A DNA stretch of 64,000 nt from Pandoraea oxalativorans (GTDB taxonomy: Bacteria; Pseudomonadota; Gammaproteobacteria; Burkholderiales; Burkholderiaceae), in contig NZ_CP011253.3 of NCBI RefSeq assembly GCF_000972785.3, positions 2,542,001 to 2,606,000 of the forward strand. The letters are read 5' to 3'. Position numbers and translations under genes: made by a program. The notes beneath the pieces are model-generated. The model was not told where the DNA came from. It searched no databases and saw nothing but the letters and a program-made list of their open reading frames with translations. Positions 6,366 to 50,963 of the stretch are shown piece by piece. Position 1 is the first letter of the stretch. Each line of letters opens with the position of its first letter.

Positions 6366-6393
6366 CCGGGATAGACGGACAAACGGAACCACT

Positions 6394-7116
6394 ATGCTTT
6401 CCATTCGTAATCTGCAAGCGGGATACGGCAAGGTGCAGGTGCTGCACGGCATCGACATCGATGTGCCGGGCGGTCAGGTCGTCACGCTCATCGGCTCGAA
6501 CGGCGCGGGCAAAACAACCACCATGCGTGCGGTGTCCGGCATGATCAAGCCCTCGTCGGGCGAAATCACGCTCGGCGAGAAGCGTATCGACGGACTGGAC
6601 TCTCACCGCATTGCGAAGCTCGGTCTGGCGCATTCGCCGGAGGGGCGTCGTGTGTTCGCCACGATGTCGGTGACGGACAATCTGCGCCTCGGCGCATTTC
6701 CGCGTCTGACCGGCAGCCGCCCGCGCGGCGACGTCGCGGCGGATCTGGAGCGCGCAATGGACTTGTTCCCGCGCCTGAAGGAGCGTCGAAATCAATTGGC
6801 GGGCACGCTTTCCGGCGGCGAGCAGCAAATGCTGGCGATGGCGCGCGCGGTCATGCTGCGTCCGGACATCGTGCTGCTCGACGAGCCGTCGATGGGTCTT
6901 GCGCCGATTCTGGTCGACGAGGTATTCCGCATCATCAGCAACCTGAAAGCGGAAGGCGTGACGATGCTGCTCGTGGAGCAGTTCGCCGCCGCCGCACTGG
7001 CCGTGGCCGACTATGGCTACGTGCTGGAGAACGGCAACATTTCCGTGCACGGCCCGGCGGAAAGCCTGCGTAACGACGACAAGGTACGCGCGGCCTATCT
7101 GGGGGGAAGTCACTGA
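6394..7116 (+). CDS. livF: Branched-chain amino acid ABC transporter ATP-binding protein LivF
   Basis: 240 residues, the normal length for LivF. It shows Walker A IGSNGAGKTTT near residue 35, signature LSGGEQQMLAMARA near residue 145, Walker B VLLLDEPSMGL near residue 165 and the H-loop replaced by the LivF-typical LLVEQFAAAAL. It should form the nucleotide-binding dimer with the LivG half of the upstream fusion. It is the last gene of the importer operon and is followed 30 bases later by a strong terminator. Confidence 0.93.
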   Translation: MLSIRNLQAGYGKVQVLHGIDIDVPGGQVVTLIGSNGAGKTTTMRAVSGMIKPSSGEITLGEKRIDGLDSHRIAKLGLAHSPEGRRVFATMSVTDNLRLGAFPRLTGSRPRGDVAADLERAMDLFPRLKERRNQLAGTLSGGEQQMLAMARAVMLRPDIVLLDEPSMGLAPILVDEVFRIISNLKAEGVTMLLVEQFAAAALAVADYGYVLENGNISVHGPAESLRNDDKVRAAYLGGSH

Positions 7117-32836: not shown

Positions 32837-34132
32837 TCAGGCGGTCAGTGCCACGCCGCCGTTCAGTCGCTCCAGCACGGTGGCCTTGACGGCACCCGGT
32901 GCCTCGTCGAGCAAGGTGGGCCAGACGGTCTGCGCTTCACGAACTGTCTCACGGGCGATCGTCATCAGCCGTCCCACGCGCAGCAGTCCTGCGCCTTTGA
33001 GCAGCGCTTCGAGGGCGGGCCAGTCGAACGCCCGCAGCGTCTTGTCGATGGCCCGGTTTACGCCGTAGTGCGAGAGCGGTACATCGTGAAAGAAGGCTGC
33101 GACGCACACCGGATCGTAGACGGGGGCGAGTTGTGGTGTCTGCGCGTCGGGATAGATCAACGCCCAGTTCTTGAGATGCGCGTCGGTGTTGCCGAGCAGG
33201 ATGAACGCGATCAGACGCCGCATGAACTCGCGCACGTCCCGTACGGGCTGGCCGGAGAGTTGGTCGAGCACGCGCAGCATCGTGGTGTAGTCGACGTCGA
33301 GGCCGCGTCCGTATTTGCTGCGCGGCGGGTATTGCAGCACCTGAGCGAACTCTTCCATATGCACACGTCGGCCATCGGGCAGCCGGTCGAAGCGCGGCAC
33401 CGCAAGGATGTGCTCGAACGGTACGTGCTCAGGCAGATCGGCGTCGTGCCGCGAGATGATTTCGGCTTTTGCGCATTCGAGATCGAGGGCTTCGCACAGC
33501 CGATAGCCGGTGAATTCGTTCTCGACGAGATCGGGGTGGCGCGTGGTCGGCAGCTTGAGAATGACCGATCCCGCGCGCCCCTGACGCTTCACGATGTAGC
33601 GGCGGCCGTCGCGAATGGCGGAGAACTTCGTCACGACGCCGGGCAGCGACGCCGCATCTTCCACTGGCGTGTCGACGAAGCCCGGCTCGACCATTTCGAG
33701 TCCCAATGCGGTGTGCCAGCGATGCACGACGTCCGGCACGCCTTCGCGCGGCGGTACCGGCTCGACTTCCAATGCGCCCATCAGATCATGACCGGCGGCG
33801 GCGAGCAGTTCGAATTCGTCGTCGGGACTGCAATGGCGCTCGGCCGCGAGGCGTTCGCGGTTGTGGCCTTCGGGCAGCAGATTCTCGAAATACACAGGCC
33901 AGCGGCCATCGGTGCGCACGAGACGAACGTCCTGCGGAGAGGCGAGAATTTCGCGGGTCGCCGTCTCGTTGGCCCCGCGATAGGCGAGCGAGAGGACAGG
34001 ACGTCGTGCGTCCGCAATGTAGTCCTCGTCGAACGACATGCGCAGGATGTCCCCGTACTGGGAGAGATAGCCGATGGCGCGACGGCTGCCGTCCGGCTGG
34101 TGCAGATAGGCGCGCAAGTACTTGATATTCAT
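32837..34132 (-). CDS. hipA: HipA-family serine/threonine kinase (toxin), module 1
   Basis: 431 residues. N-terminal HipA_N-like subdomain (GYLSQYGDILRMSF, YFENLLPEGHNRERL), then the kinase core: KFSAIRDGRRYIVKRQGRAGSVILKLPT near the ATP lysine, NEFTGYRLCEALDLECA, and the catalytic and metal motifs GNTDAHLKNWALIY followed by LAPVYDPV near residue 330. HipA kinases phosphorylate targets such as GltX, halting translation, and are held inactive by HipB. All core kinase residues look intact. A hipB-type gene lies 69 bases upstream. This protein belongs to a branch distinct from the second HipA at 49626-50963 (different N-terminus and core spacing). Confidence 0.88.
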   Translation of the reverse strand: MNIKYLRAYLHQPDGSRRAIGYLSQYGDILRMSFDEDYIADARRPVLSLAYRGANETATREILASPQDVRLVRTDGRWPVYFENLLPEGHNRERLAAERHCSPDDEFELLAAAGHDLMGALEVEPVPPREGVPDVVHRWHTALGLEMVEPGFVDTPVEDAASLPGVVTKFSAIRDGRRYIVKRQGRAGSVILKLPTTRHPDLVENEFTGYRLCEALDLECAKAEIISRHDADLPEHVPFEHILAVPRFDRLPDGRRVHMEEFAQVLQYPPRSKYGRGLDVDYTTMLRVLDQLSGQPVRDVREFMRRLIAFILLGNTDAHLKNWALIYPDAQTPQLAPVYDPVCVAAFFHDVPLSHYGVNRAIDKTLRAFDWPALEALLKGAGLLRVGRLMTIARETVREAQTVWPTLLDEAPGAVKATVLERLNGGVALTA

Positions 34133-34201: not shown

Positions 34202-34504
34202 TTAGCCCCGAAGCGTATCCACGATGGAGGGCGGGGCCGACACGCCGCTCGGCTGCCCGAGATATTTGCCGCCGGAGCGCAGAAACGCTTCGACTTCCTG
34301 ACGCAGTGCGGCGGGCACGAACATCGGTTCCAGTCCGAGCGCGCGCGCCGTCTCCAGCAAGGTCGACATACGCGGATCGAGCGCGCCCGACTCCATTTTT
34401 TGCACGGTCATGCGCGACAGCCCGGCCTGATCCGCCAGTTCGGCCTGGGTCAGTCCGGCGTCTTTGCGTGCCGAGATTAGCGGTTCCATGAAGCTCATTA
34501 TCAT
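34202..34504 (-). CDS. hipB: HipB-type XRE-family antitoxin, module 1
   Basis: 100 residues. The first 60 form an XRE helix-turn-helix: LISARKDAGLTQAELADQAGLSRMTVQKMESGALDPRMSTLLETARALGL. The C-terminal 30 residues probably contact HipA or are disordered. It should neutralise HipA and repress the hipBA promoter. Two other ATGs follow in frame within six codons, so the exact start is uncertain. The upstream sequence carries a GATAA-N8-TTATC dyad over the minus-10 region and two further dyads (34567-34612). Confidence 0.85.
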   Translation of the reverse strand: MIMSFMEPLISARKDAGLTQAELADQAGLSRMTVQKMESGALDPRMSTLLETARALGLEPMFVPAALRQEVEAFLRSGGKYLGQPSGVSAPPSIVDTLRG

Positions 34505-35902: not shown

Positions 35903-36732
35903 TGCTGACCTCCTGCGGCAGACGGCGGCCGCATCTCGATGCGTTGCGCGCCGGCCGGGGCCTTGTAAGTGAAGGTCCCTGACGGGAAAGTCGGATTCAC
36001 GTCCCAGCGGTAATTCACGGAATGTCGCGGGCGCGACGGTTGCGACGTATCCGTGATCACGAAGCGGCATGGCAGCGGGCGCGAACCCACCCGAATCCAC
36101 AGCTCCCAGTCGACGTCGGGCTGCTGGAACGCGTAATGGTTGCACCACTCGCCACCCACGCGGTCCAGACCGATAAACAGAGCTGAACGCAATTGCGTGG
36201 CATCGTCCGGGTCCATGCCCCAATAGAAGAGGTCGGCCAATGGCATACCGACCTGATATTTCTCGTCGATATCGCGTATCAGCTCGTCGATGGTCGGCGG
36301 AGCGCTTGCCTGACTGAAATACCGCTTGCCTTGCGATTCTTGATAAAGGGTGAAGGTTTTGCCGTCGTAGACGAACCCGCGATTGCGCGCCTGACCCGTC
36401 ACAACAGCACGGACTTTATCGGGGCGTTGGACGGATAACTCGGTTTGGTGAAGAAAGCCGACATTCTGTCCGGTACTTAACACGGCATCGGTCACGGTAT
36501 CCGCGTGTACCTGAAATCGTTTGAGGGAGCGCAAGTACCGACTCATTGTCGTCAACGCATCGACGGCGCCTTGCTGCATCTCCGGCATACCCTGTACTGG
36601 CAAAGTACTGTCCGATTCAGGGGCCTGCGCCCATGCCGGTGCGGCCACGAGCAGTGCGCCCGTCAACAAGGCCAGCCTCACGCCGCGGGGCGGATATCGT
36701 CGGATTTTTCGTCGGGAGAATGGAAAAAGCAC
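35899..36732 (-). CDS. DUF2092 family exported protein
   Basis: 277 residues with a signal peptide ending in WAQA (about residue 36). The mature part matches DUF2092: MSRYLRSLKRFQVHADTVTDAVLSTGQNVGFLHQTELSVQRPDKVRA, YDGKTFTLYQESQGKRY, and the C-terminal YRWDVNPTFPSGTFTYKAPAGAQRIEM, a layout shared with LolA-like outer membrane lipoprotein sorting folds. A role in handling a hydrophobic periplasmic ligand is therefore possible but unproven. The start is GTG 36732, supported by GAGGT eight bases upstream and by the fit of the signal peptide. It is translationally coupled to the Pro-Gly repeat protein downstream. Confidence 0.83.
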   Translation of the reverse strand: MLFPFSRRKIRRYPPRGVRLALLTGALLVAAPAWAQAPESDSTLPVQGMPEMQQGAVDALTTMSRYLRSLKRFQVHADTVTDAVLSTGQNVGFLHQTELSVQRPDKVRAVVTGQARNRGFVYDGKTFTLYQESQGKRYFSQASAPPTIDELIRDIDEKYQVGMPLADLFYWGMDPDDATQLRSALFIGLDRVGGEWCNHYAFQQPDVDWELWIRVGSRPLPCRFVITDTSQPSRPRHSVNYRWDVNPTFPSGTFTYKAPAGAQRIEMRPPSAAGGQQ

Positions 36733-37300
36733 TGTGTGACCTCATTCGAATGATGGAATTGAACGGGACGACCAACATGTGCGGACGCGACGCCAGATGG
36801 CGCGCAAACATGAACTTCAGGCAATACCCGGGCGGCATGGCGCGCGGTATGTGGGATCAGAATAGTGATTCGGATTGCAAACTGTCAAGCGGCGTAACCA
36901 TCATCCGAACGGATTAAGAATTACTTGAACTTGACGAATAATTTTGTAACAAGCTGTATCCGGGGCGATGCAAAAAGAAAACCTATTACCCCGTGAACCG
37001 TCGGAAAAGCTTGATCTGCATCAACCAGCGATATTCTCGATTCCCATATTTAGTGAATATTAAGAGATTTCGTGGGAATTTGAGGGTAATTTAAATTACG
37101 TAAGTCGATGATGGAATTTGGTATGCAATTCGAAAGAAACTTGCGGCTTTGAATTATTTTGTTACTATCCGATGGAAACATCCGGGTTTTTACGAAGTCG
37201 GCGAATGCCCGGTGTTTTAGTTTGGACAATTAACTAGTTTGCGAAACAATATGCAACGTATGCATTCGATATGCATACATCGATAACAAAAGGACTCAGC
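36733..37300. other. AT-rich intergenic region
   Basis: 568 bases without a gene. From about 36915 to 37300 the sequence is much more AT-rich than the rest of the window. It contains a candidate promoter for the gene at 37301: TTGCGG (37141-37146), 16 bases, TACTAT (37163-37168). A second candidate, TTGACG-N17-CTGTAT, lies near 36936. The composition could mark an inserted or horizontally acquired segment or simply a long regulatory region. Confidence 0.55.
37258..37278. promoter_or_regulatory. ATGCAT-based inverted repeat in 5' leader
   Basis: GTATGCAT (37258-37265), TCGAT, ATGCATAC (37271-37278) is a perfect 8-bp dyad with five bases between, ending 22 bases before the start at 37301. A further ATGCA lies at 37251. 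It could be an operator or a leader hairpin. Confidence 0.45.
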
Positions 37301-37918
37301 ATGAAGCTCACGAATGCCATGATTCTGGCCGGTCTGTTGTCGTTGGGGACGGTGGCGCACGCACAGGATGCGGCGCGTCCGGCACCGATCGTTGCAGGCG
37401 ACGTCGTCGAATTCCGGACCACGTTGCTGGGCGTGGATGTTAAGAAGCGCACCATTCAGGTCGCCGACGATAACGGCAAGCCGGTCACCTTCGTCGTTGG
37501 CCCGGATGTCCGGAATTTCGATCAGATTCGCAAGGGCGACAAAATCATCGTGGCGTTTCAGCGCTCGGTGGCCATCTCCGTCGCGCCGGGCGACGGTATT
37601 CGCAGCCGCGTGCTGACCGAAGGGGCCGACCGCGCGACGCCGGGTCAGAAGCCTGCCGCCGACGCGGCTCGTAATCTGAAGGTCGTGGCGACGGTGCAGC
37701 GTATCGACCGTAAGTCGAATGTCGTGACGTTGCGTGGCCCGAATCGCACGGTCGACGTGAACGTGGAAGATCCGAAGTTGCTCGAAGGCGTGAAGGTAGG
37801 CGACTCCATGACGGTGAACTACACCGAAGCGGTTGCCGTGGCCGTGACGCCCGATCCGGCGGCAAAGAACAAGGCAAAGAGGGTGCCGTCGGTGCCTGCC
37901 TCGGCCCCGAAGCCCTAA
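37301..37918 (+). CDS. Exported protein with two duplicated beta-rich domains
   Basis: 205 residues. A signal peptide (MILAGLLSLGTVAHA) precedes two similar units: residues about 30-90 (VVEFRTTLLGVDVKKRTIQV ... IRKGDKIIVAFQRSVAISV) and 125-185 (KVVATVQRIDRKSNVVTLRG ... VKVGDSMTVNYTEAVAVAV). Each has the pattern of short strands followed by a KGD or VGD turn expected for an OB-like or small beta-barrel fold, and the pair looks like an internal duplication. The C-terminal tail is Lys/Pro/Ala-rich. AAAGGA precedes ATG 37301. I do not recognise a named family; function unknown, periplasmic by prediction. Confidence 0.75.
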   Translation: MKLTNAMILAGLLSLGTVAHAQDAARPAPIVAGDVVEFRTTLLGVDVKKRTIQVADDNGKPVTFVVGPDVRNFDQIRKGDKIIVAFQRSVAISVAPGDGIRSRVLTEGADRATPGQKPAADAARNLKVVATVQRIDRKSNVVTLRGPNRTVDVNVEDPKLLEGVKVGDSMTVNYTEAVAVAVTPDPAAKNKAKRVPSVPASAPKP

Positions 37919-38042
37919 GTTGTGTCACCCGGCGACTGCGCCGCGCAGCGCGCAGTCGCATTGACTGTCGTGTCCCCGGAGGGCCCGTGTTGGCTTTCCG
38001 GGGCGCGATACCCCCTGATACGGTAAGCACCCGGAGATCGCC

Positions 38043-40824: not shown

Positions 40825-42315
40825 TCATCTTTGCGCATTATACGAGTCAGGGGACGTCTCCGAGGGCTGCCATCCGCCGCCCAGTGCCTTGACCAGCGCG
40901 ACCGACAGCACGAGTTGCTGCCCTCGGATCTGGACGTCCTGACGCTCACTCGCCAGCGCCGCCTGCTGCGCCGTAATCACGCTGAGATAGGCCGTCAGCC
41001 CGCCCGAATACCGGTCGTTCGCCAGACTCAGCAGGCGCTCGGCATCGACCACAGCTGCGTGCGATTCCTGCGCGGCGGCATTGAGGACCGACAGACCGGT
41101 CACGCCGTCCTGCACTTGCTGGAAGGCGGTGAGTACCGTCTGACGGTAGTTCGCTTGCACGGCGCGATAGCCCGCGCTGGCGTAATCGACCCCTGCCTGA
41201 CGCCGTCCGCCGTCGAAGACGACCTGCGACGCCAACGTGCCCAATGTCCACAACAGGCTGGGGGCAGACAGCAGGTTGGCGAACTCGGTGCTTTGCCAGC
41301 CGATGCCGGGATTCAGCGTCAGGCTCGGGAAGAAGGCCGCTTTCGCCACGCCAATCTGTGCGTTTGCAGCGGCCATGCTACGTTCGGCCGAAGCCACGTC
41401 CGGACGCCGTTGCAGCACATCGCTCGGCACGCCGAGCGGGATCTCGGGCAGCGTTGCAGGCAGGAGCCCCTGCGGAATTGAGAACGCCGGCGCGGGCACG
41501 CCGACGAGCGCCGCGATGGCATGCTCGTACTGGTCGCGTTGCTGATGCAGCAGGCGAGCCTGCACGCGCGTGGTGTCGAGTTGCGATTGCTGCTGTAGGA
41601 CGTCCAGCCCCGAGACCGCGCCGAGATCGTGCTGGGCGCTCACGTAATCGAGCGCTTTTTGCTGCAAGGTGACCGACTGGTCCAGCACCCTGATCTCGGC
41701 GTCGATGGCGCGCAATTGGAAGTAGGCCGTGGCGAGTTGTGTCGTGAGGACGAGTCTGGCATTCGCCAGATCGTCGCCCGCTTGCTCGGCGGACGCCTGC
41801 GCACCTTCGACCTGACGGCGAATGCGGCCAAACAGATCGGTGTCGTAGCTCACGCCCAGTCCTACCTGAACGTTGTTCTGCACGGTCGACATGCTGCTCG
41901 ACGAGTAGCTCGTGACCGGGCGATTCGCCGAGATGCGCTGACGGGCCAGCCCGAACGAGGCATCGACTTCCGGCAGCCGCTGAGCCGAAATGCCGGACAG
42001 CGTCGCCTGTGCCTGATCGTAATGCGCGACGGCGGCGGCGAGCGTCTGGCTCTGTGCGAGGGCCTTGTCTTCGAGGGCGTCGAGCGCCGGTTCGTTGAAC
42101 GCTTTCCACCAGTCAGGCTGCATCGCAGCGCGCGACGGTTGCGCGACCTTCCAGTAACCGTCTGTTTTCCAGACGGGTGGGGTCGAGACTTCCGGACGAT
42201 GGTAGTCCGGGCCAACGGCGCACGCGCTGAGCAGCGCGACGACGGCGAGCAGCGTTGCGCTGAGCCGGATGCCGCTTTTGAGGCGACCCTGGCTGTCGTC
42301 GTCTACGCGGCTCAC
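40825..42315 (-). CDS. RND efflux outer membrane lipoprotein, NodT/OprM family
   Basis: 496 residues. Lipobox LSAC places the lipidated cysteine near residue 32, followed by AVGPDYHRPEV, the NodT-family start. Two OEP repeats follow (SYDTDLFGRIRRQVEGAQASAEQAGDDLANARL; PGIGWQSTEFANLL; GLTAYLSVITAQQAALASERQDVQ). It forms the outer membrane exit duct of the RND pump. Its ATG overlaps the adaptor stop (ATGA at 42312-42315), so translation is coupled. It is similar in layout to the NodT protein at 13087-14628, which serves an MFS-type pump. Confidence 0.92.
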   Translation of the reverse strand: MSRVDDDSQGRLKSGIRLSATLLAVVALLSACAVGPDYHRPEVSTPPVWKTDGYWKVAQPSRAAMQPDWWKAFNEPALDALEDKALAQSQTLAAAVAHYDQAQATLSGISAQRLPEVDASFGLARQRISANRPVTSYSSSSMSTVQNNVQVGLGVSYDTDLFGRIRRQVEGAQASAEQAGDDLANARLVLTTQLATAYFQLRAIDAEIRVLDQSVTLQQKALDYVSAQHDLGAVSGLDVLQQQSQLDTTRVQARLLHQQRDQYEHAIAALVGVPAPAFSIPQGLLPATLPEIPLGVPSDVLQRRPDVASAERSMAAANAQIGVAKAAFFPSLTLNPGIGWQSTEFANLLSAPSLLWTLGTLASQVVFDGGRRQAGVDYASAGYRAVQANYRQTVLTAFQQVQDGVTGLSVLNAAAQESHAAVVDAERLLSLANDRYSGGLTAYLSVITAQQAALASERQDVQIRGQQLVLSVALVKALGGGWQPSETSPDSYNAQR

Positions 42316-43559
42316 GATTCGCCTCCTTGCGCCTTGGCTGCGGGTTTGCTGACACCTTTGGTCTCAAGTGCCTTGGCCTGCACCTGGTCGCCGTCGTCCA
42401 CCGAATCGCTCGGATTGACGATCACGCGGTCTTTGCGCGACACGCCGTCGGCCAGTTCCAGCGTTTGTCCGAGGTCCTGTGCGATCACGATCTTGTGCAG
42501 ATGCACGATGCCCTGATCGTCCACGACCGCCACACGCGGGCCCTCGGCGCGGAACAGCAGCGCGTTGGCAGGCACGCTCAGATGCGGTTGCACGGCGCCG
42601 GGCAGCGCGAGTTGCACATACGCGCCGGGGCGCAGCTTGCCATCCGGATTCGGCAAGGCGGCTTCGATCTGGAGCGAACGCGTCGCGACGTCGATGGCGC
42701 CGGACACGTGCGTGATCTTGCCCTGGAAGTGCTGTCCGGGTAGTTCGGCTTGTGTCACGACCACCGGCTGACCGACGGACACGCTTTGCGCATAGGCCTG
42801 CGGTACTTGCGCGTAGACGCGCAACGGGTCGGTCTGCGCGAGCGAGAACATCGCCTGCGCGCTCCCGCTGCCCGCCGCGATGAGATCGCCGACGTCCACA
42901 TTGCGCTGCGTGATCACGCCGTCGAACGGGGCGACGATGCGCTTGAACGATTCCAGCTGCTCAAGCCGTTTGACGTTGGCGTCGGCCGCTGCGAGATTGG
43001 CCACGCCCTGGGTGTAGGTGCTCTGACGTTCGTCCAGTTCCTGCTGCGAGACGGCGTCGCGCTGACGCAGTTGCTGCCACCGGTCGAGCGACGACCTGGC
43101 CAGGCCGAGGCTGGCGTTGATCTGATTGCGCTGGGCGATGGCCTGCGCCAGTTCCTGATCGGTTTCCGGCGTATCGAGGTCGGCGAGCAACTGACCTTGC
43201 TTGACCTTCGCGCCGATGTCCACGTAACGATGCAGCAAATAGCCCGTCGCACGGGCGTAGATGGGCGACTCGACCGCACCGCGCAGGGTGGCGGGCAGCA
43301 GCGTTTCGCTGGCGGCGGTGGCCTGTGGCGTCACTACGCTTACGAACTGCTTCGCGTTTTGCGACGTCACGTTGGCGACGGCCCGGCGTTGCAGAAAGTT
43401 GGAGAGGGTCGTGCGTGCTGCCCCTGCGACCAGCAGCAGGGCGACGACGATCAGCACGATCTTCGCGCGACGGAACTCGCCGTGACGCGGGGGCAGCTGC
43501 CGTCCGTCGGCAGGATCGTGCTCGGGAATGGCCAGTTCGGCGTGATGTTTCTCGGTCAT
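42312..43559 (-). CDS. RND efflux periplasmic adaptor (membrane fusion protein)
   Basis: 415 residues from ATG 43559 (a TTG three codons earlier at 43568 is also possible). One N-terminal membrane anchor (about 30-50), then the RND-MFP pattern: ESPIYARATGYLLHRYVDIGAKVKQGQLLADLDTPE, a coiled-coil hairpin (about 115-190), IVAPFDGVITQRNVDVGDLIAAG and the beta-barrel region KLRPGAYVQLALPG. It links the inner membrane RND transporter to the outer membrane factor. It overlaps that factor gene by four bases and lies about 50 bases after the transporter gene. It is somewhat longer than AcrA at the N-terminus because of a hydrophilic cytoplasmic segment. Confidence 0.92.
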   Translation of the reverse strand: MTEKHHAELAIPEHDPADGRQLPPRHGEFRRAKIVLIVVALLLVAGAARTTLSNFLQRRAVANVTSQNAKQFVSVVTPQATAASETLLPATLRGAVESPIYARATGYLLHRYVDIGAKVKQGQLLADLDTPETDQELAQAIAQRNQINASLGLARSSLDRWQQLRQRDAVSQQELDERQSTYTQGVANLAAADANVKRLEQLESFKRIVAPFDGVITQRNVDVGDLIAAGSGSAQAMFSLAQTDPLRVYAQVPQAYAQSVSVGQPVVVTQAELPGQHFQGKITHVSGAIDVATRSLQIEAALPNPDGKLRPGAYVQLALPGAVQPHLSVPANALLFRAEGPRVAVVDDQGIVHLHKIVIAQDLGQTLELADGVSRKDRVIVNPSDSVDDGDQVQAKALETKGVSKPAAKAQGGES

Positions 43560-43615
43560 GTCGTTCAACCCGTCAAATCTTGGTATCTGGTGTGTGGAGT
43601 GTCGGTCGCCGTGCC

Positions 43616-46600
43616 TTACTGGCTGGCGTTATCGTCATTCGCGTTGTCATCACTAGGGTCGCCATGCGTCGGCATGGCCGTGTTCCCTTCGCGACGGGCC
43701 TTGCGACGCACCAGTCGCGTGTGTACGCCTGCGAAGACCAGCGGCACGAAGAAGAGCGTCGAGACCGTCGCGAACATCAGCCCGCCGATCACGGCGCGCC
43801 CGAGCGGCGCGTTCTGTTCTGCGCCTTCGCCCAGACCGAGCGCCATCGGCACCATGCCGATGATCATCGCGAGCGCCGTCATCAGCACCGGACGAATCCG
43901 GCTCGCTCCGGCTTCGAGCGCCGCCTTGAGCGGCGCCATGCCCGATTCCGTCCGTTGCCGCGCGAACGCCACCACGAGAATACTGTTGGCGGTCGCGACC
44001 CCCATGGTCATGATGGCCCCCGTGAGCGCGGGCACCGACAGGCGCGTGCCGGTGAAAAACAGCATCCAGACGATGCCGGCCAGCGCGGCGGGCAGGGCGC
44101 TCACAATGATGAGCGGATCGACCCACGACTGGAAATCCACCACGATAAGCAGGTAGACGAGCACGATGGCCATGGCCACACCGATACCCAGCCCCATGTA
44201 CGAGCTTTGCATCGTGCTGACCTGACCGCGCACCACGATCTGGCTGCCGCGTGGCAGATCCTTGCGAGCTTGTGCGACGAGTTTGTCGATATCGTTCGCC
44301 ACGCTGCCCAGATCCCGGCCTTCCACGCTCACGTAGAGGTCGATGACCGGACGAATGTTGTAGTGGCTGACCACGGCGAATTGCTGCGTCGGCTCCACCT
44401 TCACGAAGTTGGCGAGCAACTGCGGCTGGCCGTTGTTGCCCGTGCCCGCCACCGGCAGGCGCAACAGATCGTCGATGGAACTGATACGGTACTGCGGTGA
44501 TTGCACCGAGAGGCTGTACTCCACGCCGTTCTGTTCGTTGAACCAGAAGCCGGGCGACGTTTGCGAGCTGCCCGAGAGCGAAATCAGCACGTTCTGTGCG
44601 ACGGCATTGGCGTTGAGATTCAACTGCTGCAGGCGCGTGCGGTCCATATTCAGGTGGATCGTCGGTGCGTTGACCCGTTGCTGAATATGGGTGTCGACCG
44701 TGCCCGGCACCTGACGCACCTGCTTGAGCAGCCTGGTCGCGACATCGAAGTTCGCCCGTTGCTGATTGCCGCTGATCTGGATGTCGATGGCGGCGGGCAG
44801 ACCGAAGTTGAGAATCTGCGTGACGATGTCCGCCGGTTGAAAGAAGAACTCCACGCCGGGGAAGCGCTGCGGCAGCAAGGCGCGCAGTTTGGCGATGTAC
44901 TCCGCGCTCGGACGATGCTCGGGCGTGAGCGCAATCTGGATCTCACCGTCGAGCGTACCGATCGTCCCCGCGTTGCTGTAAGAGAGGTTGATGCCGCTGT
45001 ACGGCAGACCCAGGTTGTCGAGGATCGTTTCGAGTTCGTTGGCGGGCACGACCTCGCGCACGACCTTCTCGACCTGATCGGCCAGACGCGCGGTTTCTTC
45101 GATGCGTGTGCCCGTCGGTGCGCGCATGTGCATGCGAATGTTGCCCGCGTCGACCGACGGGAAGAAGTCGGCCCCCAATGCGAACACCAGTCCCATCGAC
45201 AGCACGCAGAACGCCAGGAAGCCCGTGGCGAAGACACGGCGGCGCACCAGCAGGGTGGACAGCACGACGATGTACGCCGCGCGCATACGCTCGAAGCTGG
45301 CGTCGAAGCGCAGGTAGATGCGGCGGAAAACGCCGGGCGTCGCGTTCGGATCCGTGGGGTGCGCGTGCCCCATGAGCAGCATGGCGAGCGTGGGCACCAG
45401 CGTACGCGAGAGCACATACGACGCGAGCATCGCGAACACCACCGCCTCGGCCAGCGGCACGAACAGGTAGCGCGCCACGCCTGTCAGGAAGAACATCGGC
45501 ACGAAGACGATACAGATACACAGCGTCGAGACCAGTGCCGGGACCGCGATCTCCCCGGCGCCATCGAGAATCGCCTGATGTAGTGGGGTCCCCATGTGGA
45601 GGTGTCGCTCGATGTTCTCGATGGTGACGGTCGCATCGTCGACCAGAATCCCCACCGCGAGCGCCAGCCCGCCCAGCGTCATGATGTTGATGGTCTGCCC
45701 GAGCGCATGGAGCGCGAGCAGCGACGAGAGGATCGAGAGCGGAATCGAGATGGCGATGATGCAGGTGCTGCGCCAGTTGCCGAGGAACAGCAGGATCATG
45801 GCCGCTGTGAGGGCGGCGGCGATCAGCGCTTCGTGAATCACACCTTGCACGGCGGCCTTCACGAAGACCGACTGGTCGAACAAGGCCGAGACGTGCAGGT
45901 CTGCGGGCAGGGCGGCGCGGGCCTCGGGCAGCAGCGCCTTCATGGCGTCGACGACGGACAGCGTAGACGCATCGCCCGTCTTCATGATCGACATCAGCAC
46001 GCCACGCTGACCGTTTTGCCGCACGATGTTCGTCTGTGGCGAGAAGCCCGTGCGCACGTGGGCCACTTCACGCAGATAGGTGGTCGCCCCATTCACGGTG
46101 CGTACCGGAATATTGTTTAGGCCCTCGACGCTCGGCGGCGAGCCGTTCATGTCGACGGTGTATTCGCGAGGGCCGATCTTCGCTGTACCGGTCGGCAGGA
46201 TCAGGTTCTGTGCGTTGACGGCCGCGACCACGTCCTGCGCCGTCAGGCCCTTCGCGAGCAGGGCGCGCGAGTCGATGTCCACCGAGATCAGTCGCGTCTT
46301 GCCCCCATACGGATACGGTACGGCGGCACCGGGAATCGTCACCAGTTGTGGGCGCAGGAAGTTCAGTGCCGTGTCGTTAAGCGCCGGTTCCGACAGGCTG
46401 GGGCTCGACAGGCCCAACTGCATCACTGGAATCGACGAAGCCGAATAACTGATGACGAGCGGTGGCGTCGCGCCGGGCGGCATCTGCTTGACCTGCGCCT
46501 GCTCGACCGCAACGACCTGTGCAATGGCCGTCTGAATATTGGCCGTCGGTTGCAGGAAGATCTTGATGATGCCGATGCCCGGCAGCGATTGCGACTCGAT

Positions 46601-46840
46601 GTGCTCGATGTTGTTGACGGTGGTCGTCAAGCCGCGCTCGTTGCCGGAGATCATCCGGTCGGCGATGTCCTGTGCGGACAGACCGTTATAGGTCCAGATG
46701 ATACTGATGACGGGGATGTTGATTTCCGGCAGCACGTCCACGGGCGTGCGCAACAGCGCGAGCGGCGTGGCGAGCAGGATCAGAATGGCCATCACGATGA
46801 ACGTGTATGGCCGTTTGAGCGCAACGTTGACAATCCACAT
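43616..46840 (-). CDS. RND multidrug efflux transporter, inner membrane subunit
   Basis: 1074 residues, 12 membrane segments and two large periplasmic loops in the usual RND order. The helix-4 segment GGLALAVGILVDDATVTIENIERHL carries the proton-relay aspartate pair, which is typical of the HAE-1 drug branch and differs from the CusA metal branch. Further RND marks are LRTPVDVLPEINIPVISIIWTYNGLS near the N-terminus and GAIMTMGVATANSILVVAFA late in the chain. It belongs to a subgroup of AcrB-like pumps often found with CusRS-type regulators. First gene of a five-gene operon. Substrates unknown; despite the metal-type regulators the transporter looks like an organic-compound pump. Confidence 0.93.
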   Translation of the reverse strand: MWIVNVALKRPYTFIVMAILILLATPLALLRTPVDVLPEINIPVISIIWTYNGLSAQDIADRMISGNERGLTTTVNNIEHIESQSLPGIGIIKIFLQPTANIQTAIAQVVAVEQAQVKQMPPGATPPLVISYSASSIPVMQLGLSSPSLSEPALNDTALNFLRPQLVTIPGAAVPYPYGGKTRLISVDIDSRALLAKGLTAQDVVAAVNAQNLILPTGTAKIGPREYTVDMNGSPPSVEGLNNIPVRTVNGATTYLREVAHVRTGFSPQTNIVRQNGQRGVLMSIMKTGDASTLSVVDAMKALLPEARAALPADLHVSALFDQSVFVKAAVQGVIHEALIAAALTAAMILLFLGNWRSTCIIAISIPLSILSSLLALHALGQTINIMTLGGLALAVGILVDDATVTIENIERHLHMGTPLHQAILDGAGEIAVPALVSTLCICIVFVPMFFLTGVARYLFVPLAEAVVFAMLASYVLSRTLVPTLAMLLMGHAHPTDPNATPGVFRRIYLRFDASFERMRAAYIVVLSTLLVRRRVFATGFLAFCVLSMGLVFALGADFFPSVDAGNIRMHMRAPTGTRIEETARLADQVEKVVREVVPANELETILDNLGLPYSGINLSYSNAGTIGTLDGEIQIALTPEHRPSAEYIAKLRALLPQRFPGVEFFFQPADIVTQILNFGLPAAIDIQISGNQQRANFDVATRLLKQVRQVPGTVDTHIQQRVNAPTIHLNMDRTRLQQLNLNANAVAQNVLISLSGSSQTSPGFWFNEQNGVEYSLSVQSPQYRISSIDDLLRLPVAGTGNNGQPQLLANFVKVEPTQQFAVVSHYNIRPVIDLYVSVEGRDLGSVANDIDKLVAQARKDLPRGSQIVVRGQVSTMQSSYMGLGIGVAMAIVLVYLLIVVDFQSWVDPLIIVSALPAALAGIVWMLFFTGTRLSVPALTGAIMTMGVATANSILVVAFARQRTESGMAPLKAALEAGASRIRPVLMTALAMIIGMVPMALGLGEGAEQNAPLGRAVIGGLMFATVSTLFFVPLVFAGVHTRLVRRKARREGNTAMPTHGDPSDDNANDDNASQ

Positions 46841-47189
46841 GATTCAGACGCGCTCGGGCGCAGTCACAGGCGTACGGACAAGGGCGGCGCCAACGACGCA
46901 CACGCGGGCGCGTCACCGGTACCGGAAGGAACGCCGCCATGGTATGGGCGCACCCCCAACGCCAAAATGGCGCGAATATGGCGAAATTGACAGAATTCGC
47001 GACATCGCCCGGAAACCCCCGTTGCACAAGGCCCGACACACCGCCATATCGATGAGAGTGGCATATTACGGCGTGTTGCGTTATAACGTTGTCACACTAA
47101 AAGTCGCCGTCCGATAGCCTGGGGTCCACCCGAGGACCGGGCGTTGGCGGCCGACAGCGTCAAGAACTCCAGTCCCACGCAGGCAAGCA
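46841..47189. other. Divergent promoter region, RND operon / DyP-encapsulin operon
   Basis: 349 bases with no gene. A 10-base palindrome CGTTATAACG lies at 47079-47088, in an AT-richer stretch that probably contains promoters for both sides. On the plus strand TTGCGT (47077-47082) could be a minus-35 element for the peroxidase-encapsulin operon. No clear CusR-type box was found. Confidence 0.5.
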
Positions 47190-48311
47190 ATGACCGAACG
47201 TCCGACGTCTCCTCCTCCCGAGCCGCAGCCGGTTTCCGGCAAAGTCACCCGAAGCGCTATCTTCCTCGTCGCCACGATTCGCGACGACGAGGCCGCGCAC
47301 GCCGCCGTGCGGGGCTGGTGTGCCGATGTGGCCGCGTATGTCCGATCCGTGGGCAAGCGTGTGCCGACCGGCAATCTGACCTGTGTGGCCGGTTTCAGCG
47401 ACAGCGCCTGGGACCGCCTGTTCGGCGATCCGCGCCCGGCCGAGCTGCATCCGTTCCGTGAATTCGGCGCGGGCAAGCGCCACGCCCCGGCCACGCCCGG
47501 CGATCTGCTGCTGCACATCCGTGCCGAACAGATGGACCTGTGCTTCGACCTCGCCACGCTCCTGCTGAACAAGCTGGGCGACGCGGTGAGCGTCGTCGAC
47601 GAAGTGCACGGCTTCCGCTATTTCGATATGCGCGCCATGATCGGCTTCGTCGACGGCACAGAAAACCCGGAAGGTCAGGAGGCGCTCGACTTCACCGTCA
47701 TGGGCGACGAAGACCCCGAGTTCGCTGGCGGCAGCTATGTGCTGGTGCAGAAGTACCTGCACGACATGACGGGCTGGAACGCGCTGCCGGTGGAAGTGCA
47801 GGAGCGCATCATCGGCCGCACCAAGTTCTCGGACGTGGAACTCGACGAGGACGTGAAGCCCAGTAATTCGCACAGCGCGCTGACCACGCTCGAAGTGGAT
47901 GGCAAGGAAGTGAAGATCCTGCGCGACAACATGCCGTTCGGTCGTCCCGGCTCGGGCGAGTTCGGCACGTTCTTCATTGGCTACGCGCGCTCGCCGTGGC
48001 CCATCGAGCAGATGCTCGAGAACATGTTCGTTGGCAAGCCGCCCGGTAATTACGACCGCTTGCTGGACTTCAGCACGGCGGTGACCGGCGGTTTGTTCTT
48101 CGTGCCGTCGGCCACGTTACTGGAAGCGCTCGCCGACCGTGCGCCGCAAGCGGCCGCCACCGAGTCCAGCCATGTCATCAAGACGTTGATCGACGCACAG
48201 CCTGCGGGCGTGCAAGTGTTCGACGCCGCTACTGCTTCTCATCAGGCGAGCCCCGCAGTTGCGGACGGCTCGCTGCAAATCGGATCGCTCAAAGGAGTTT
48301 CTCAGGCATGA
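47190..48311 (+). CDS. DyP-type heme peroxidase, encapsulin cargo
   Basis: 373 residues, class B dye-decolorising peroxidase. The GXXDG motif is GFVDGTENP with catalytic Asp155; His228 in SNSHSAL is the expected heme ligand and Arg245 in ILRDNMPFG the distal arginine. These positions agree closely with characterised DypB enzymes. After the enzyme ends near residue 315, a linker rich in Ala, Ser and Val leads to the C-terminal DGSLQIGSLKG, the cargo-loading peptide used to pack DyP inside encapsulin shells. It uses H2O2 to oxidise dyes, phenolics or lignin-like compounds; the in vivo substrate is unknown. Start ATG 47190. The stop overlaps the encapsulin start (ATGA at 48308-48311). Confidence 0.95.
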   Translation: MTERPTSPPPEPQPVSGKVTRSAIFLVATIRDDEAAHAAVRGWCADVAAYVRSVGKRVPTGNLTCVAGFSDSAWDRLFGDPRPAELHPFREFGAGKRHAPATPGDLLLHIRAEQMDLCFDLATLLLNKLGDAVSVVDEVHGFRYFDMRAMIGFVDGTENPEGQEALDFTVMGDEDPEFAGGSYVLVQKYLHDMTGWNALPVEVQERIIGRTKFSDVELDEDVKPSNSHSALTTLEVDGKEVKILRDNMPFGRPGSGEFGTFFIGYARSPWPIEQMLENMFVGKPPGNYDRLLDFSTAVTGGLFFVPSATLLEALADRAPQAAATESSHVIKTLIDAQPAGVQVFDAATASHQASPAVADGSLQIGSLKGVSQA

Positions 48312-49135
48312 ATAACCTGCATCGCGAACTGGCCCCCGTTTCGAGCGCCGCATGGGCGCAAATCGAAGAAGAAGTGGCCCGCACGTTCAAACGCACCGTT
48401 GCCGCGCGCCGCGTGGTCGACGTGAAAGGGCCGGGCGGTCTGGCGCTGTCTGGTGTCGGCACCGGCCATCAGACATCGATTGCATCGCCGTTCAAGGGCG
48501 TGGACGCCCGTCAACGTCAGGTGCTGCCGCTGGTGGTGCTGCGCGTGCCGTTCGAGTTGTCGCGCGAAGCGATTGACGATGTCGAGCGCGGCGCGAACGA
48601 TTCCGACTGGCAACCGGCGAAGGATGCCGCGATCAAGCTGGCCTATGCCGAAGACCGTGCGATTTTCGACGGCTATAAGGCGGCGCAGATCACTGGGGTG
48701 CGTGAAGGCACGTCGAACCCGGTGTTGCCGCTGCCCAAGGACATTGCGGACTACCCGACGGTGATCGCCAAGGCGCTGGAGCAATTGCGGCTTGAAGGCG
48801 TTGATGGCCCGTACAGCGTGCTGCTGGGCGCGGACGCTTATACGGCGGTGGCCGAGGCGAACGACCAGGGTTACCCGATTCTCGAACATATCGGTCACAT
48901 CGTGAGCGGCGAGATCATCTGGGCGCCGGCTATCGACGGTGGTGCCATCGTCTCGACGCGTGGCGGCGACTACGAGATGCACATCGGTCAGGACCTGTCG
49001 ATTGGCTATCTGGACCACAACGCCGAAACGGTGCGGTTGTATCTGGAAGAGACGTTTACGTTCCTGATGCTTACGGCTGAGGCGAGTGTGTCGGTCGCGC
49101 CGGGTGCGGCGGCTAAGGCGGCAAAGGGCAAGTAA
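48308..49135 (+). CDS. Encapsulin shell protein (family 1, linocin M18-like)
   Basis: 275 residues, the usual family 1 length. The start NNLHRELAPVSSAAWAQIEEEV and ARRVVDVKGPGG are the conserved encapsulin N-terminal region that forms the inner cargo-binding pocket; VLRVPFELSREAIDDVERG, SNPVLPLPKDIADYPTVIAKAL, PYSVLLGADAYT and MHIGQDLSIGYLDHNAETVRLYLEETFTFLM complete the HK97 phage-capsid fold. Sixty subunits should assemble a T=1 shell of roughly 20-25 nm around the DyP peroxidase encoded just upstream. AAAGGAG at 48291-48297, within the cargo peptide codons, is its ribosome-binding site. A terminator follows at 49157. Confidence 0.96.
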   Translation: MNNLHRELAPVSSAAWAQIEEEVARTFKRTVAARRVVDVKGPGGLALSGVGTGHQTSIASPFKGVDARQRQVLPLVVLRVPFELSREAIDDVERGANDSDWQPAKDAAIKLAYAEDRAIFDGYKAAQITGVREGTSNPVLPLPKDIADYPTVIAKALEQLRLEGVDGPYSVLLGADAYTAVAEANDQGYPILEHIGHIVSGEIIWAPAIDGGAIVSTRGGDYEMHIGQDLSIGYLDHNAETVRLYLEETFTFLMLTAEASVSVAPGAAAKAAKGK

Positions 49136-49156
49136 AGCCTGAAGTGGCGAAACGGG

Positions 49157-49196
49157 AAGGGCTGAGGACCGTGCGAGCGGTCTCCTCAGCCCTTTT
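49157..49196 (+). terminator. Rho-independent terminator of DyP-encapsulin operon
   Basis: AAGGGCTGAGGA (49157-49168) pairs with TCCTCAGCCCTT (49183-49194), 12 bp, with an inner ACCG/CGGT stem and trailing T residues. It lies 21 bases after the encapsulin stop. Confidence 0.88.
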
Positions 49197-49270
49197 CTGT
49201 TTACGGGGGTTCCCGATGCCGACGGCATACACATGCCCAAAGCGCTCCCTACGGCGATTGCGAGATTCTC

Positions 49271-49373: not shown

Positions 49374-49622
49374 ATGAACCAGCTCATTGCTTCGTCAACA
49401 CACCTCGGCGAAATCTTGCGGTCGGCCCGTCGCTCGGCGGGGATGACGCAGCTTGAGGCGGCTACGCGGCTGGGACTGAGTCAGAGTCGTCTGTCCGCGC
49501 TGGAGCTTGATCCGAAAATCATTTCGGTCGAGCAGTTACTGGCGCTATTGGGCCTTTACCGCCTTGACCTCGTCGTCCAGTCACGCGATGTTGCTCCTGT
49601 TTCTTCCAACACGGAGTGGTAA
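49374..49622 (+). CDS. hipB: HipB-type XRE-family antitoxin, module 2
   Basis: 82 residues, close to E. coli HipB in length. XRE helix-turn-helix: LGEILRSARRSAGMTQLEAATRLGLSQSRLSALELDPKIISVEQLLALLGLYRLDLVVQ. The C-terminal short tail (VSSNTEW) may carry the conserved Trp used by HipB. It should bind the dyads upstream and neutralise HipA, which starts three bases after its stop. Confidence 0.9.
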   Translation: MNQLIASSTHLGEILRSARRSAGMTQLEAATRLGLSQSRLSALELDPKIISVEQLLALLGLYRLDLVVQSRDVAPVSSNTEW

Positions 49623-49625
49623 TCG

Positions 49626-50963
49626 ATGGGGCGCAGGTCACATGCCCGGGCATTGTCCATCTGGGCGAATAATCAGCGTGTCGGCACGTGGCGTGTGCAG
49701 TCACGAAACCGGATGGCATTGCAGTACGACGACGCGTGGCGCGATTCTGCGGCAGGGCGTCCGCTTTCGCTCTCGTTGCCGTTCGGCATCGATTCGACAC
49801 CGCTGACCGGGGACCGGGTCGGTCACTACTTCGAGAATCTTCTACCGGATAGCGATGTCATCCGGCGTCGGCTCGCAGGGCGGTATGGCACGCCATCCAC
49901 CGATGGTTTCGATTTGCTTGAGGCTATCGGACGCGATTGTGTCGGTGCCATTCAGTTTCTTGGCGAAGACGACGTACCCGGCAATGTGCAAACCATTGAA
50001 GCGAGTCCCCTGTCCGAGGAAGCTGTCGCCGAGCATCTGCGCAAAGCCGCTGGCGATGCGTTGCCGGGGCGATATGCTCACGACGACTTGCGGCTTTCGA
50101 TCGCGGGGGCACAGGAAAAGACGGCCCTGCTGCATCACGAAGGGCGCTGGTGTATGCCGCATGGCGCCACGCCAACGACCCATATCCTGAAGTTGCCGAT
50201 AGGGCTCGTGGGCAACCGGCGGGCAGACCTGTCAACGTCCGTTGAGAACGAGTGGCTTTGCATGCAACTGTGCGCGGCGCTCGGTTTGCCGACGGCGGCG
50301 AGTGAGATGCTGACGTTCGGTGATCAGAAAGTGCTGTCGGTGACGCGCTTCGATCGTCAGATGCATTCCAGCGGTACGTGGATCATGCGCTTGCCGCAGG
50401 AGGACTTCTGCCAGGTATTCGGGCTGCCGCCCCATCTCAGGTATGAGGCAGACGGTGGCCCCGGCATTGCCGATCTGGCGGCCACCTTGCGCCAATCGCA
50501 GACATCGGACGATGACCTCGAAACGGTGTTTCGCACGCAGGTCGTGTTCTGGATGCTGGCGGCGACGGACGGTCACGCAAAGAACTTCAGCATCCACCTT
50601 TTGCCGGGCGGACGTTACCGTCTTGCCCCGCTCTATGATGTGCTGTCGATGTGGCCGATTATCGGCGACGGGCCGAATCAGGTGCCATGGCAACGTGCCA
50701 AGCTGGCGATGGCGGTGCCCGGAAAGCACCGGCACTATCGACTTCGCGAGATTCAGCGTCGGCACTTCGATGCAATGGCGGCGAAGTGTTATCTCGGCGC
50801 TGGCGCGGCATCGATCCTCGATGCGTTGCTCGCGAGCGTCCCGCGGGCTATTGCTGAAGTTGCGGGCAGACTACCCTCCGATTTCCCTGAACGCGTGGCG
50901 GAGCGCATTTTTTCGGGGTTGCAGCACGCCGCCGATCACTTGGCAGCGCCTGCATCCCCCTGA
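49626..50963 (+). CDS. hipA: HipA-family serine/threonine kinase (toxin), module 2
   Basis: 445 residues, E. coli HipA-like. N-terminal couple_hipA domain (ALSIWANNQRVGTWRVQSRNRMALQYDDAW; PLSLSLPFG; VGHYFENLLPDSDVIRRRL), then the kinase core DDLRLSIAGAQEKTALLHHEGRWCMPHGATPTTHILK, and catalytic ATDGHAKNFSIHLLPGGRYRLAPLYDVLS near residues 315-345. The SIAGAQEKTAL loop is the P-loop-like motif that holds the autophosphorylated serine in E. coli HipA. It inactivates translation by phosphorylating a tRNA synthetase, if it acts as the family prototype. All key elements look intact. It converges with the glycosyltransferase gene, 28 bases away. Confidence 0.92.
   Translation: MGRRSHARALSIWANNQRVGTWRVQSRNRMALQYDDAWRDSAAGRPLSLSLPFGIDSTPLTGDRVGHYFENLLPDSDVIRRRLAGRYGTPSTDGFDLLEAIGRDCVGAIQFLGEDDVPGNVQTIEASPLSEEAVAEHLRKAAGDALPGRYAHDDLRLSIAGAQEKTALLHHEGRWCMPHGATPTTHILKLPIGLVGNRRADLSTSVENEWLCMQLCAALGLPTAASEMLTFGDQKVLSVTRFDRQMHSSGTWIMRLPQEDFCQVFGLPPHLRYEADGGPGIADLAATLRQSQTSDDDLETVFRTQVVFWMLAATDGHAKNFSIHLLPGGRYRLAPLYDVLSMWPIIGDGPNQVPWQRAKLAMAVPGKHRHYRLREIQRRHFDAMAAKCYLGAGAASILDALLASVPRAIAEVAGRLPSDFPERVAERIFSGLQHAADHLAAPASP

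Follow-up and report, generated by a model that had tools for sequence, protein, structure and literature searches.

A complete family 1 encapsulin operon with a probable DyP peroxidase cargo in Pandoraea oxalativorans

A gene for a DyP-type peroxidase lying directly before a gene for an encapsulin raises the question whether the enzyme is enclosed in the protein shell and what such a compartment would do for the cell. We examined this question for a locus of Pandoraea oxalativorans situated in the window, that is, the whole stretch of 64,000 nucleotides that was analysed (contig NZ_CP011253.3, positions 2,542,001 to 2,606,000). The first-pass annotation had proposed a complete two-gene encapsulin operon here. 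Both open reading frames were found intact between positions 47190 and 49135, where they share an ATGA overlap, and their GC3 values (0.81 for the DyP gene, 0.76 for the encapsulin gene) are coding-like. They are carried by contig 1 of the 6.5 Mb genome, which gave one match per family and no further DyP or encapsulin gene. With high probability (about 0.93), in our view, the locus represents a complete DyP encapsulin operon of family 1 whose peroxidase is packaged. The two genes, the catalytic residues, the tag, the tag-binding residues, the gene overlap and the fact that tag and shell tend to be present or absent together are read from the sequence; single-unit transcription, assembly, loading, heme binding, preference for H2O2, oligomeric state and access through pores would follow by analogy with homologues. 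The coordinates are collected in Table 1.

Table 1. Position, strand and basis of the features at the encapsulin locus and beside it
Feature	Position	Strand	Basis
RND efflux operon in divergent orientation (outer-membrane factor, adaptor, permease), neighbour only	40825..46840	-	PF02321, PF16576/PF13437, PF00873
Conserved upstream block GAGTGGCATATTACGG...CCGATAG, candidate promoter/operator	47056..47118	+	Alignment of the window and 15 Pandoraea loci
DyP gene, class B DyP-type heme peroxidase, cargo enzyme, 373 aa	47190..48311	+	PF04261 and PF20628, TIGR01413, catalytic residues, nearest solved relatives including encapsulin-associated DyPs
Linker motif HVIKTLID, aa 328-335, helix of low confidence within a tail that is otherwise disordered	48171..48194	+	Pandoraea conservation, DyP model
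Cargo-loading (targeting) peptide DGSLQIGSLKG, aa 359-369, then VSQA	48264..48296	+	Sequence; compare SGSLNIGSLK of KpEnc
Shine-Dalgarno sequence (AAGGAG) for the shell gene, sharing bases with the last tag codons	48292..48297	+	Sequence, relatives
Shell gene, family 1 encapsulin, 275 aa	48308..49135	+	PF04454, NF041155, solved homologues, tag-binding residues
Hairpin, then short T-rich stretch, likely intrinsic terminator	49157..49197	+	Fold, relatives
hipB-hipA toxin-antitoxin pair, outside the encapsulin system	49374..50963	+	PF01381, PF07804, PF13657

The product of the first gene matched both DyP domains of Pfam far above their cut-offs (Dyp_perox_N 119.7 bits against 20.4, Dyp_perox_C 195.2 against 20), and its best solved relative among the PDB sequences had an E value of 3.4e-127. 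The two domains together with the distal Asp and Arg and the proximal His place the enzyme in class B. Asp155, His228 and Arg245, which had been named as intact beforehand, stand at the positions claimed and were identical in all 81 aligned DyPs (the window and the best 80 of 425 relatives); their roles would be those described for D152, H225 and R242 of an enterobacterial DyP (PMC12140327). The N-terminus, MTERPTSPPPEPQPVSG, shows by eye neither a twin-arginine motif nor a hydrophobic stretch, and the family of Tat-substrate type (TIGR01412) reached 59.2 bits against a cut-off of 428. A model built from 40 sequences was of moderate quality (mean pLDDT 67.3), with residues 321-373 below 50. 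Over the best matching segment, identity reaches 98-99% with the DyPs of Pandoraea anapnoica (the nearest), P. aquatica and P. commovens; the ranks after these three were taken by twelve further Pandoraea DyPs (best 80 of 425 relatives).

For the second gene the scores were equally clear. Linocin_M18 (PF04454) gave 317.4 bits against a cut-off of 24.3, the best solved relative had an E value of 1.6e-107 among the PDB sequences, and the NCBIfam model encap_f1 (NF041155) gave 342.4 bits against an equivalog cut-off of 100, so that the description of this protein as a full-length family 1 encapsulin was borne out over its 275 residues. A model from the single sequence was useless (pLDDT 35), and the shell fold therefore rests on homology to solved shells. 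Towards the C-terminus (about 49100-49135) the Pandoraea shells carry a Lys/Ala-rich tail, for example APGAAAKAAKGK or GNAKPAGAKKKSK, which is longer than in most other aligned shells; the C-terminus of encapsulins lies outside the particle.

As a family 1 system requires, the DyP encoded beside the shell bears a cargo tag, GSLQIGSLK (aa 360-368), in the C-terminal sequence ...DGSLQIGSLKGVSQA. The peptide DGSLQIGSLKG had been described as C-terminal; it is present, but not at the very end of the protein, four residues (VSQA) following it. For this reason a truncation by 11 residues would cut into the tag without removing it whole, and 15 have to be removed. In the Klebsiella pneumoniae system the corresponding peptide SGSLNIGSLK was resolved in the shell KpEnc, and loading of KpDyP was abolished by changing Leu, Ile, Leu, the second Gly or Lys of GSLNIGSLK (PMC10960027). 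These essential residues, that is the three hydrophobic ones, the second Gly and the Lys, are all found in the window tag.

The receiving side is mostly conserved as well. R34 and D229 of KpEnc are crucial for tag binding (PMC10960027). The window shell has R34, R35, D38, D229 and S231 with Leu at position 230; with respect to the tag-binding residues of KpEnc this means identity at R34, D38 and D229 and an exchange of I230 for Leu. Among the window shell and the 69 shells from the best 80 of 425 loci, R34, D38 and S231 were found in 70 of 70 and D229 in 65 of 70 (Glu in the other 5), and position 230 is Val in 49, Leu in 20 including the window, and Ile in 1.

Does the shell receive a second cargo? 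A strict tag pattern matched the whole genome once, in the DyP itself. A looser pattern gave 19 matches, seven of them within 24 residues of a stop codon (L119, L122, L126, L127, L130, L131 and L132), L122 being the DyP. L119 is preceded by 320 open codons, yet its sequence LLIGWFSVR is no tag; in L132 the sequence LSIGSLRR ends a 58-aa reading frame that runs antisense to one of 519 aa (EAL-type by eye) and was set aside as a chance match; L126, L127, L130 and L131 have at most 70 open codons upstream and poor tags. Among the genomic pattern matches the DyP tag alone ends a plausible protein, with the restriction that the looser pattern favours G or C at third positions and tags in rarer codons could escape it.

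The end of the tag coincides with a signal of the next gene. The codons CTC AAA GGA GTT, encoding LKGV, contain the AAGGAG of the shell gene, and ten bases separate this motif from the shell ATG. At 64 of the 69 loci with tag and shell among the best 80 of 425, such a motif overlaps the tag codons, as AAGGAG in 48 and as AAGG in 16. At two further loci AAGG lies elsewhere: L063 has a longer tail after the tag, and in L068 the shell gene is located upstream of the DyP gene. The remaining three (L059, L069 and L079) show no AAGG and have other DNA between the genes; the gap measures about 1 kb in L069 and L079, which belong to Burkholderia lata and a relative, and about 0.45 kb in L059. The gap of L069 and L079 holds a reversed reading frame that looks by eye like a GIY-YIG nuclease. 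In more distant operons the residues following the tag vary (KKEV, KDEAGHE, KEEAEHE or a stop after KK), and the bases are purine-rich by eye; among 36 further loci, L097 has no tag upstream of the shell gene and two (L165 and L167) were unreadable. Much of the overlap is to be expected, because Lys-Gly codons nearly give AAGG and because the gene overlap places the ribosome site in the upstream gene, and the 48 full AAGGAG cases are therefore more telling than the AAGG ones. Earlier papers have suggested that translation is strongly coupled in encapsulin operons (PMC7925596, PMC8229669).

A further feature of the DyP tail is confined to a narrower group. A helix was predicted at residues 329-335 (VIKTLID) with a pLDDT below 50 in the model from 40 sequences, and the pattern [AV][IV][KEQR]TL[IL]D is conserved in the window and 15 Pandoraea loci. 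It was also present in all 22 readable tails of 23 Pandoraea loci, the species of which largely overlap with those of the first set. The motif was absent from the other Burkholderiales aligned and from the tails of Sphingobium, Shinella and Tsukamurella; P0006, whose DyP is 82% identical to that of the window, has AIARLIDV instead, and the E. coli DyP has VINTLR at this position. Among 120 matches listed the motif was found in 5 proteins (three from Pandoraea, the two others at 99% and 87% identity) and the tag in 96, so the motif is not general to encapsulated DyPs. We tentatively propose, as a rather unlikely reading, that the end of the tag is dual-coding, serving as Lys-Gly and as the shell Shine-Dalgarno sequence, whereby translation of the two genes would be tied and both would tend to be gained or lost as a unit, and that the Pandoraea motif [AV][IV]xTL[IL]D would form a helix making a second contact, either with the shell or with a neighbouring DyP.

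By analogy with homologous systems the operon may work as follows. A single transcript would yield first the DyP and then the shell, probably by coupled translation from the Shine-Dalgarno sequence overlapping the tag. The DyP would fold, bind heme and oligomerise, and its flexible tail of about 50 residues would present GSLQIGSLK to the inner face of a shell subunit. About 60 shell subunits would enclose one to a few DyP oligomers, with pores that may admit H2O2 and small electron donors. Inside, the DyP would reduce H2O2 and oxidise small aromatics or phenolics. An enclosure of peroxide chemistry in the cell would follow from the family to which the pair belongs. Regarding the oxidant, an encapsulated enterobacterial DyP used H2O2 and none of six organic peroxides, which was ascribed to a narrow tunnel and to where D152 and R242 are placed (PMC12140327). 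As the residues equivalent to D152 and R242 are present here, the oxidant is likely to be H2O2. Any proposal on the natural electron donor or on what the cell gains is a guess.

We considered two alternatives for the net role of the compartment. First, and this is the role we prefer, it would serve the cytoplasmic detoxification of peroxide and reactive aromatics such as small phenolics, not the attack on polymeric lignin; to this we would give about even odds. The DyP compartment of Mycobacterium tuberculosis protects against H2O2 at low pH (PMC8635971). Second, the enzyme could be packaged with the breakdown of lignin-derived phenolics as its main role, in place of a general peroxide defence, which we consider possible but doubtful. 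Pandoraea strains have been described as lignin degraders (PMC6733911), and in the proteome of Pandoraea sp. ISTKB one DyP of 40.756 kDa was detected with 15 unique peptides, so that the protein is made, with a log2 fold change of 1.43 on kraft lignin versus vanillic acid (PMC5987411). It is probably the same gene, since the mass fits the 39.88-41.43 kDa of the Pandoraea DyPs compared here and each carrier genome has one DyP. The proteome weakly favours small phenolic substrates. However, the kraft lignin signal is a weak one, because 1110 of the 1979 quantified proteins, more than half, rose likewise in that comparison (PMC5987411), and since several antioxidant proteins rose too, stress fits equally well. 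Moreover, a Pfam scan of 28 proteins from the window gave no aromatic-degradation family, and with no secretion signal seen by eye polymeric lignin would be out of reach.

The surroundings of the operon bear on its regulation and on a possible link to the adjoining genes. An upstream block of about 60 bases is kept with few differences in all 16 Pandoraea sequences, and its 28-bp core occurs once in the 6.5 Mb genome when up to 3 mismatches are allowed. When the first 32 bases of the block were compared without gaps to 18 upstream regions from outside Pandoraea, 17 matched at 13-16 positions; L073, a shell-less Paraburkholderia DyP locus, matched at 21 of 32 about 108 bases before the DyP gene, no chance level having been computed for either value. 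A consensus scan found no sigma-70 promoter upstream of the DyP gene and two matches preceding hipB, and Rfam gave no RNA element near the operon at gathering scores. Downstream, the region 49136-49215 folds with -44.9 kcal/mol (z = -5.75). A perfect inverted repeat of at least 11 bases follows the shell gene in 12 of the 15 Pandoraea relatives, and one of 8-9 bases in the other 3; a consensus terminator scan reported no terminator after the shell gene.

The first-pass annotation had also placed the operon beside an efflux operon and a hipBA module. Both adjoin it in the window, but the presence of hipBA is not constant: apart from the window it was found at this site in L002 and L003 only, that is in 2 of 15 Pandoraea relatives. 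The RND permease adjoins the operon in 14 of the 15, the exception being L012, and an ArnT-like gene lies downstream in 14 (unseen in L002; in L008 the contig ends inside the gene). Accordingly, hipBA represents an insert of variable occurrence, set between genes that are conserved. A functional tie of the operon to the adjoining genes, either by the pump exporting DyP products or by hipBA as an accessory, is very improbable: the constancy of the divergent permease would agree with the former, but L012 has the DyP operon without an adjoining pump, and among 9 loci from outside Pandoraea only the shell-less L055 showed weak RND-type matches (26-31% identity), the other 8 none; the accessory role of hipBA is contradicted by synteny, and L012 has a distant HipA-like frame (29% identity) elsewhere. 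The suggested link of efflux pump and hipBA to the operon is consequently not upheld.

Elsewhere in the window we observed a second HipA-family gene (32840-34132, minus strand; PF07804, 139.1 bits), preceded by a 100-aa reading frame (34202-34504, minus strand) that could be its HipB partner. The GC content drops to 0.563 at 36001-38000, compared with 0.60-0.67 in the other 2-kb steps, which may mark an acquired segment; a reading frame in this stretch (37271-37918) had no Pfam match.

Packaging as the normal state of the enzyme can be judged from relatives with and without the shell. One genome per species was scanned, 425 loci encode a relative of the DyP, and the best 80 were examined. Tag and shell were both present at 69 of these 80. 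The other 11 have no shell gene beside the DyP, and none was found elsewhere in the genomes of these 11, the completeness of which was not stated. Ten of the 11 are also tagless and end soon after the catalytic domain; they belong to Ralstonia, Pseudomonas, Azomonas, Trinickia and one Paraburkholderia. The eleventh, from Paraburkholderia franconis (L065; DyP frame 5947-7050), retains an altered tag, GSLNIGALKG, which the pattern missed, in a genome without a detected shell, and tag and shell are therefore not inseparable. On the DyP tree it pairs with the shell-bearing L041 with a support of 99. This suggests that the shell was lost first and that the orphan tag is now decaying, although this is a single case. 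In a quick tree built from the catalytic domain, the shell label requires at least 5 changes, at least 3 of them forced by starred branches. Within Pandoraea, 24 of 32 genomes gave matches to both PF04454 and PF20628 and the other 8 to neither, one of these 8 having a size of 1.2 Mb; each of the 24 carrier genomes has one DyP match. In wider samples the shell gene was present in 99 of 299 genomes of the family and in 7 of 299 across the phylum (6 over the cut-off, the window's genome included).

That the DyP acts free in the cytoplasm, with the shell as a relic or a separate protein and packaging of minor weight, can be dismissed as most improbable: the ten tagless and shell-less relatives among the best 80 of 425 imply that the enzyme can serve unpackaged, but Pandoraea keeps or loses both genes together (24 of 32 and 8 of 32), tag and tag-binding residues are conserved, and the genes overlap with the ribosome site of the shell lying across the tag. 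The earlier proposal that the DyP is packaged in the encapsulin is thus supported at the sequence level by the tag, the tag-binding residues, the gene overlap and the joint presence or absence.

With a packaged DyP as the preferred reading, the 8 of 32 Pandoraea genomes and several near relatives without the pair make the genus a natural comparison for the contribution of the shell, and owing to the one DyP match per carrier genome the deletion of one gene would be a clean test of function. A complete and conserved DyP encapsulin is now placed in Pandoraea, an airway opportunist and a genus studied for lignin degradation. It is a sound further example that is ordinary for its family, of which one survey already counted 1505 family 1 DyP systems, 519 of them in Proteobacteria (PMC8346489). 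In passages of two papers that name both encapsulin and Pandoraea, the two are not linked.

Several known systems can be compared with this locus. Among solved structures PDB 9e5e was the best match for the DyP and the second best for the shell; we take it to be the enterobacterial transposon system, because its DyP tail matches that of an E. coli plasmid copy (L157). PDB 3qnr, presumably the DypB of Rhodococcus jostii, is more distant from the window DyP, with 358.7 bits compared with 427.8 for the top match. R. jostii DypB was assembled with its encapsulin in vitro and has been described as a lignin peroxidase (PMC8346489, PMC8197335). The DyP-Cfp29 nanocompartment of M. tuberculosis has the same two components as the Pandoraea operon (PMC8635971), and shells named Cfp29 were among the PDB matches of the window shell. 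For the mycobacterial system a role in resistance to H2O2 at low pH was demonstrated. A DyP-encapsulin pair was also seen on a plasmid of Sphingobium yanoikuyae typed as conjugative (L158, 225201-230220), near a PRC-barrel gene and a RelE/ParE-ParD pair.

In the K. pneumoniae system KpDyP/KpEnc (PDB 8u4z, 8u50 and 8u51; PMC10960027) the tag, GSLNIGSLK, is one residue apart from the GSLQIGSLK of the window. Both shells share R34, D38 and D229, but differ at position 230 (Leu in the window, Ile in KpEnc), and the residues after LK differ as well. The enterobacterial transposon-associated DyP encapsulin (shell WP_001061054.1; PMC12140327) resembles the window in its gene order, its tag (GSLNIGSLK), its catalytic Asp, His and Arg, the contact residues R34 and D229 and its disordered linker. 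The linkers themselves differ, apart from the likeness of VIKTLI and VINTLR. The enterobacterial operon is flanked by genes for a formate dehydrogenase and an RpoH-like sigma factor, neither of which is among the flanking genes identified in Pandoraea, and, in contrast to this transposon-associated system, the Pandoraea operon is chromosomal and stable.
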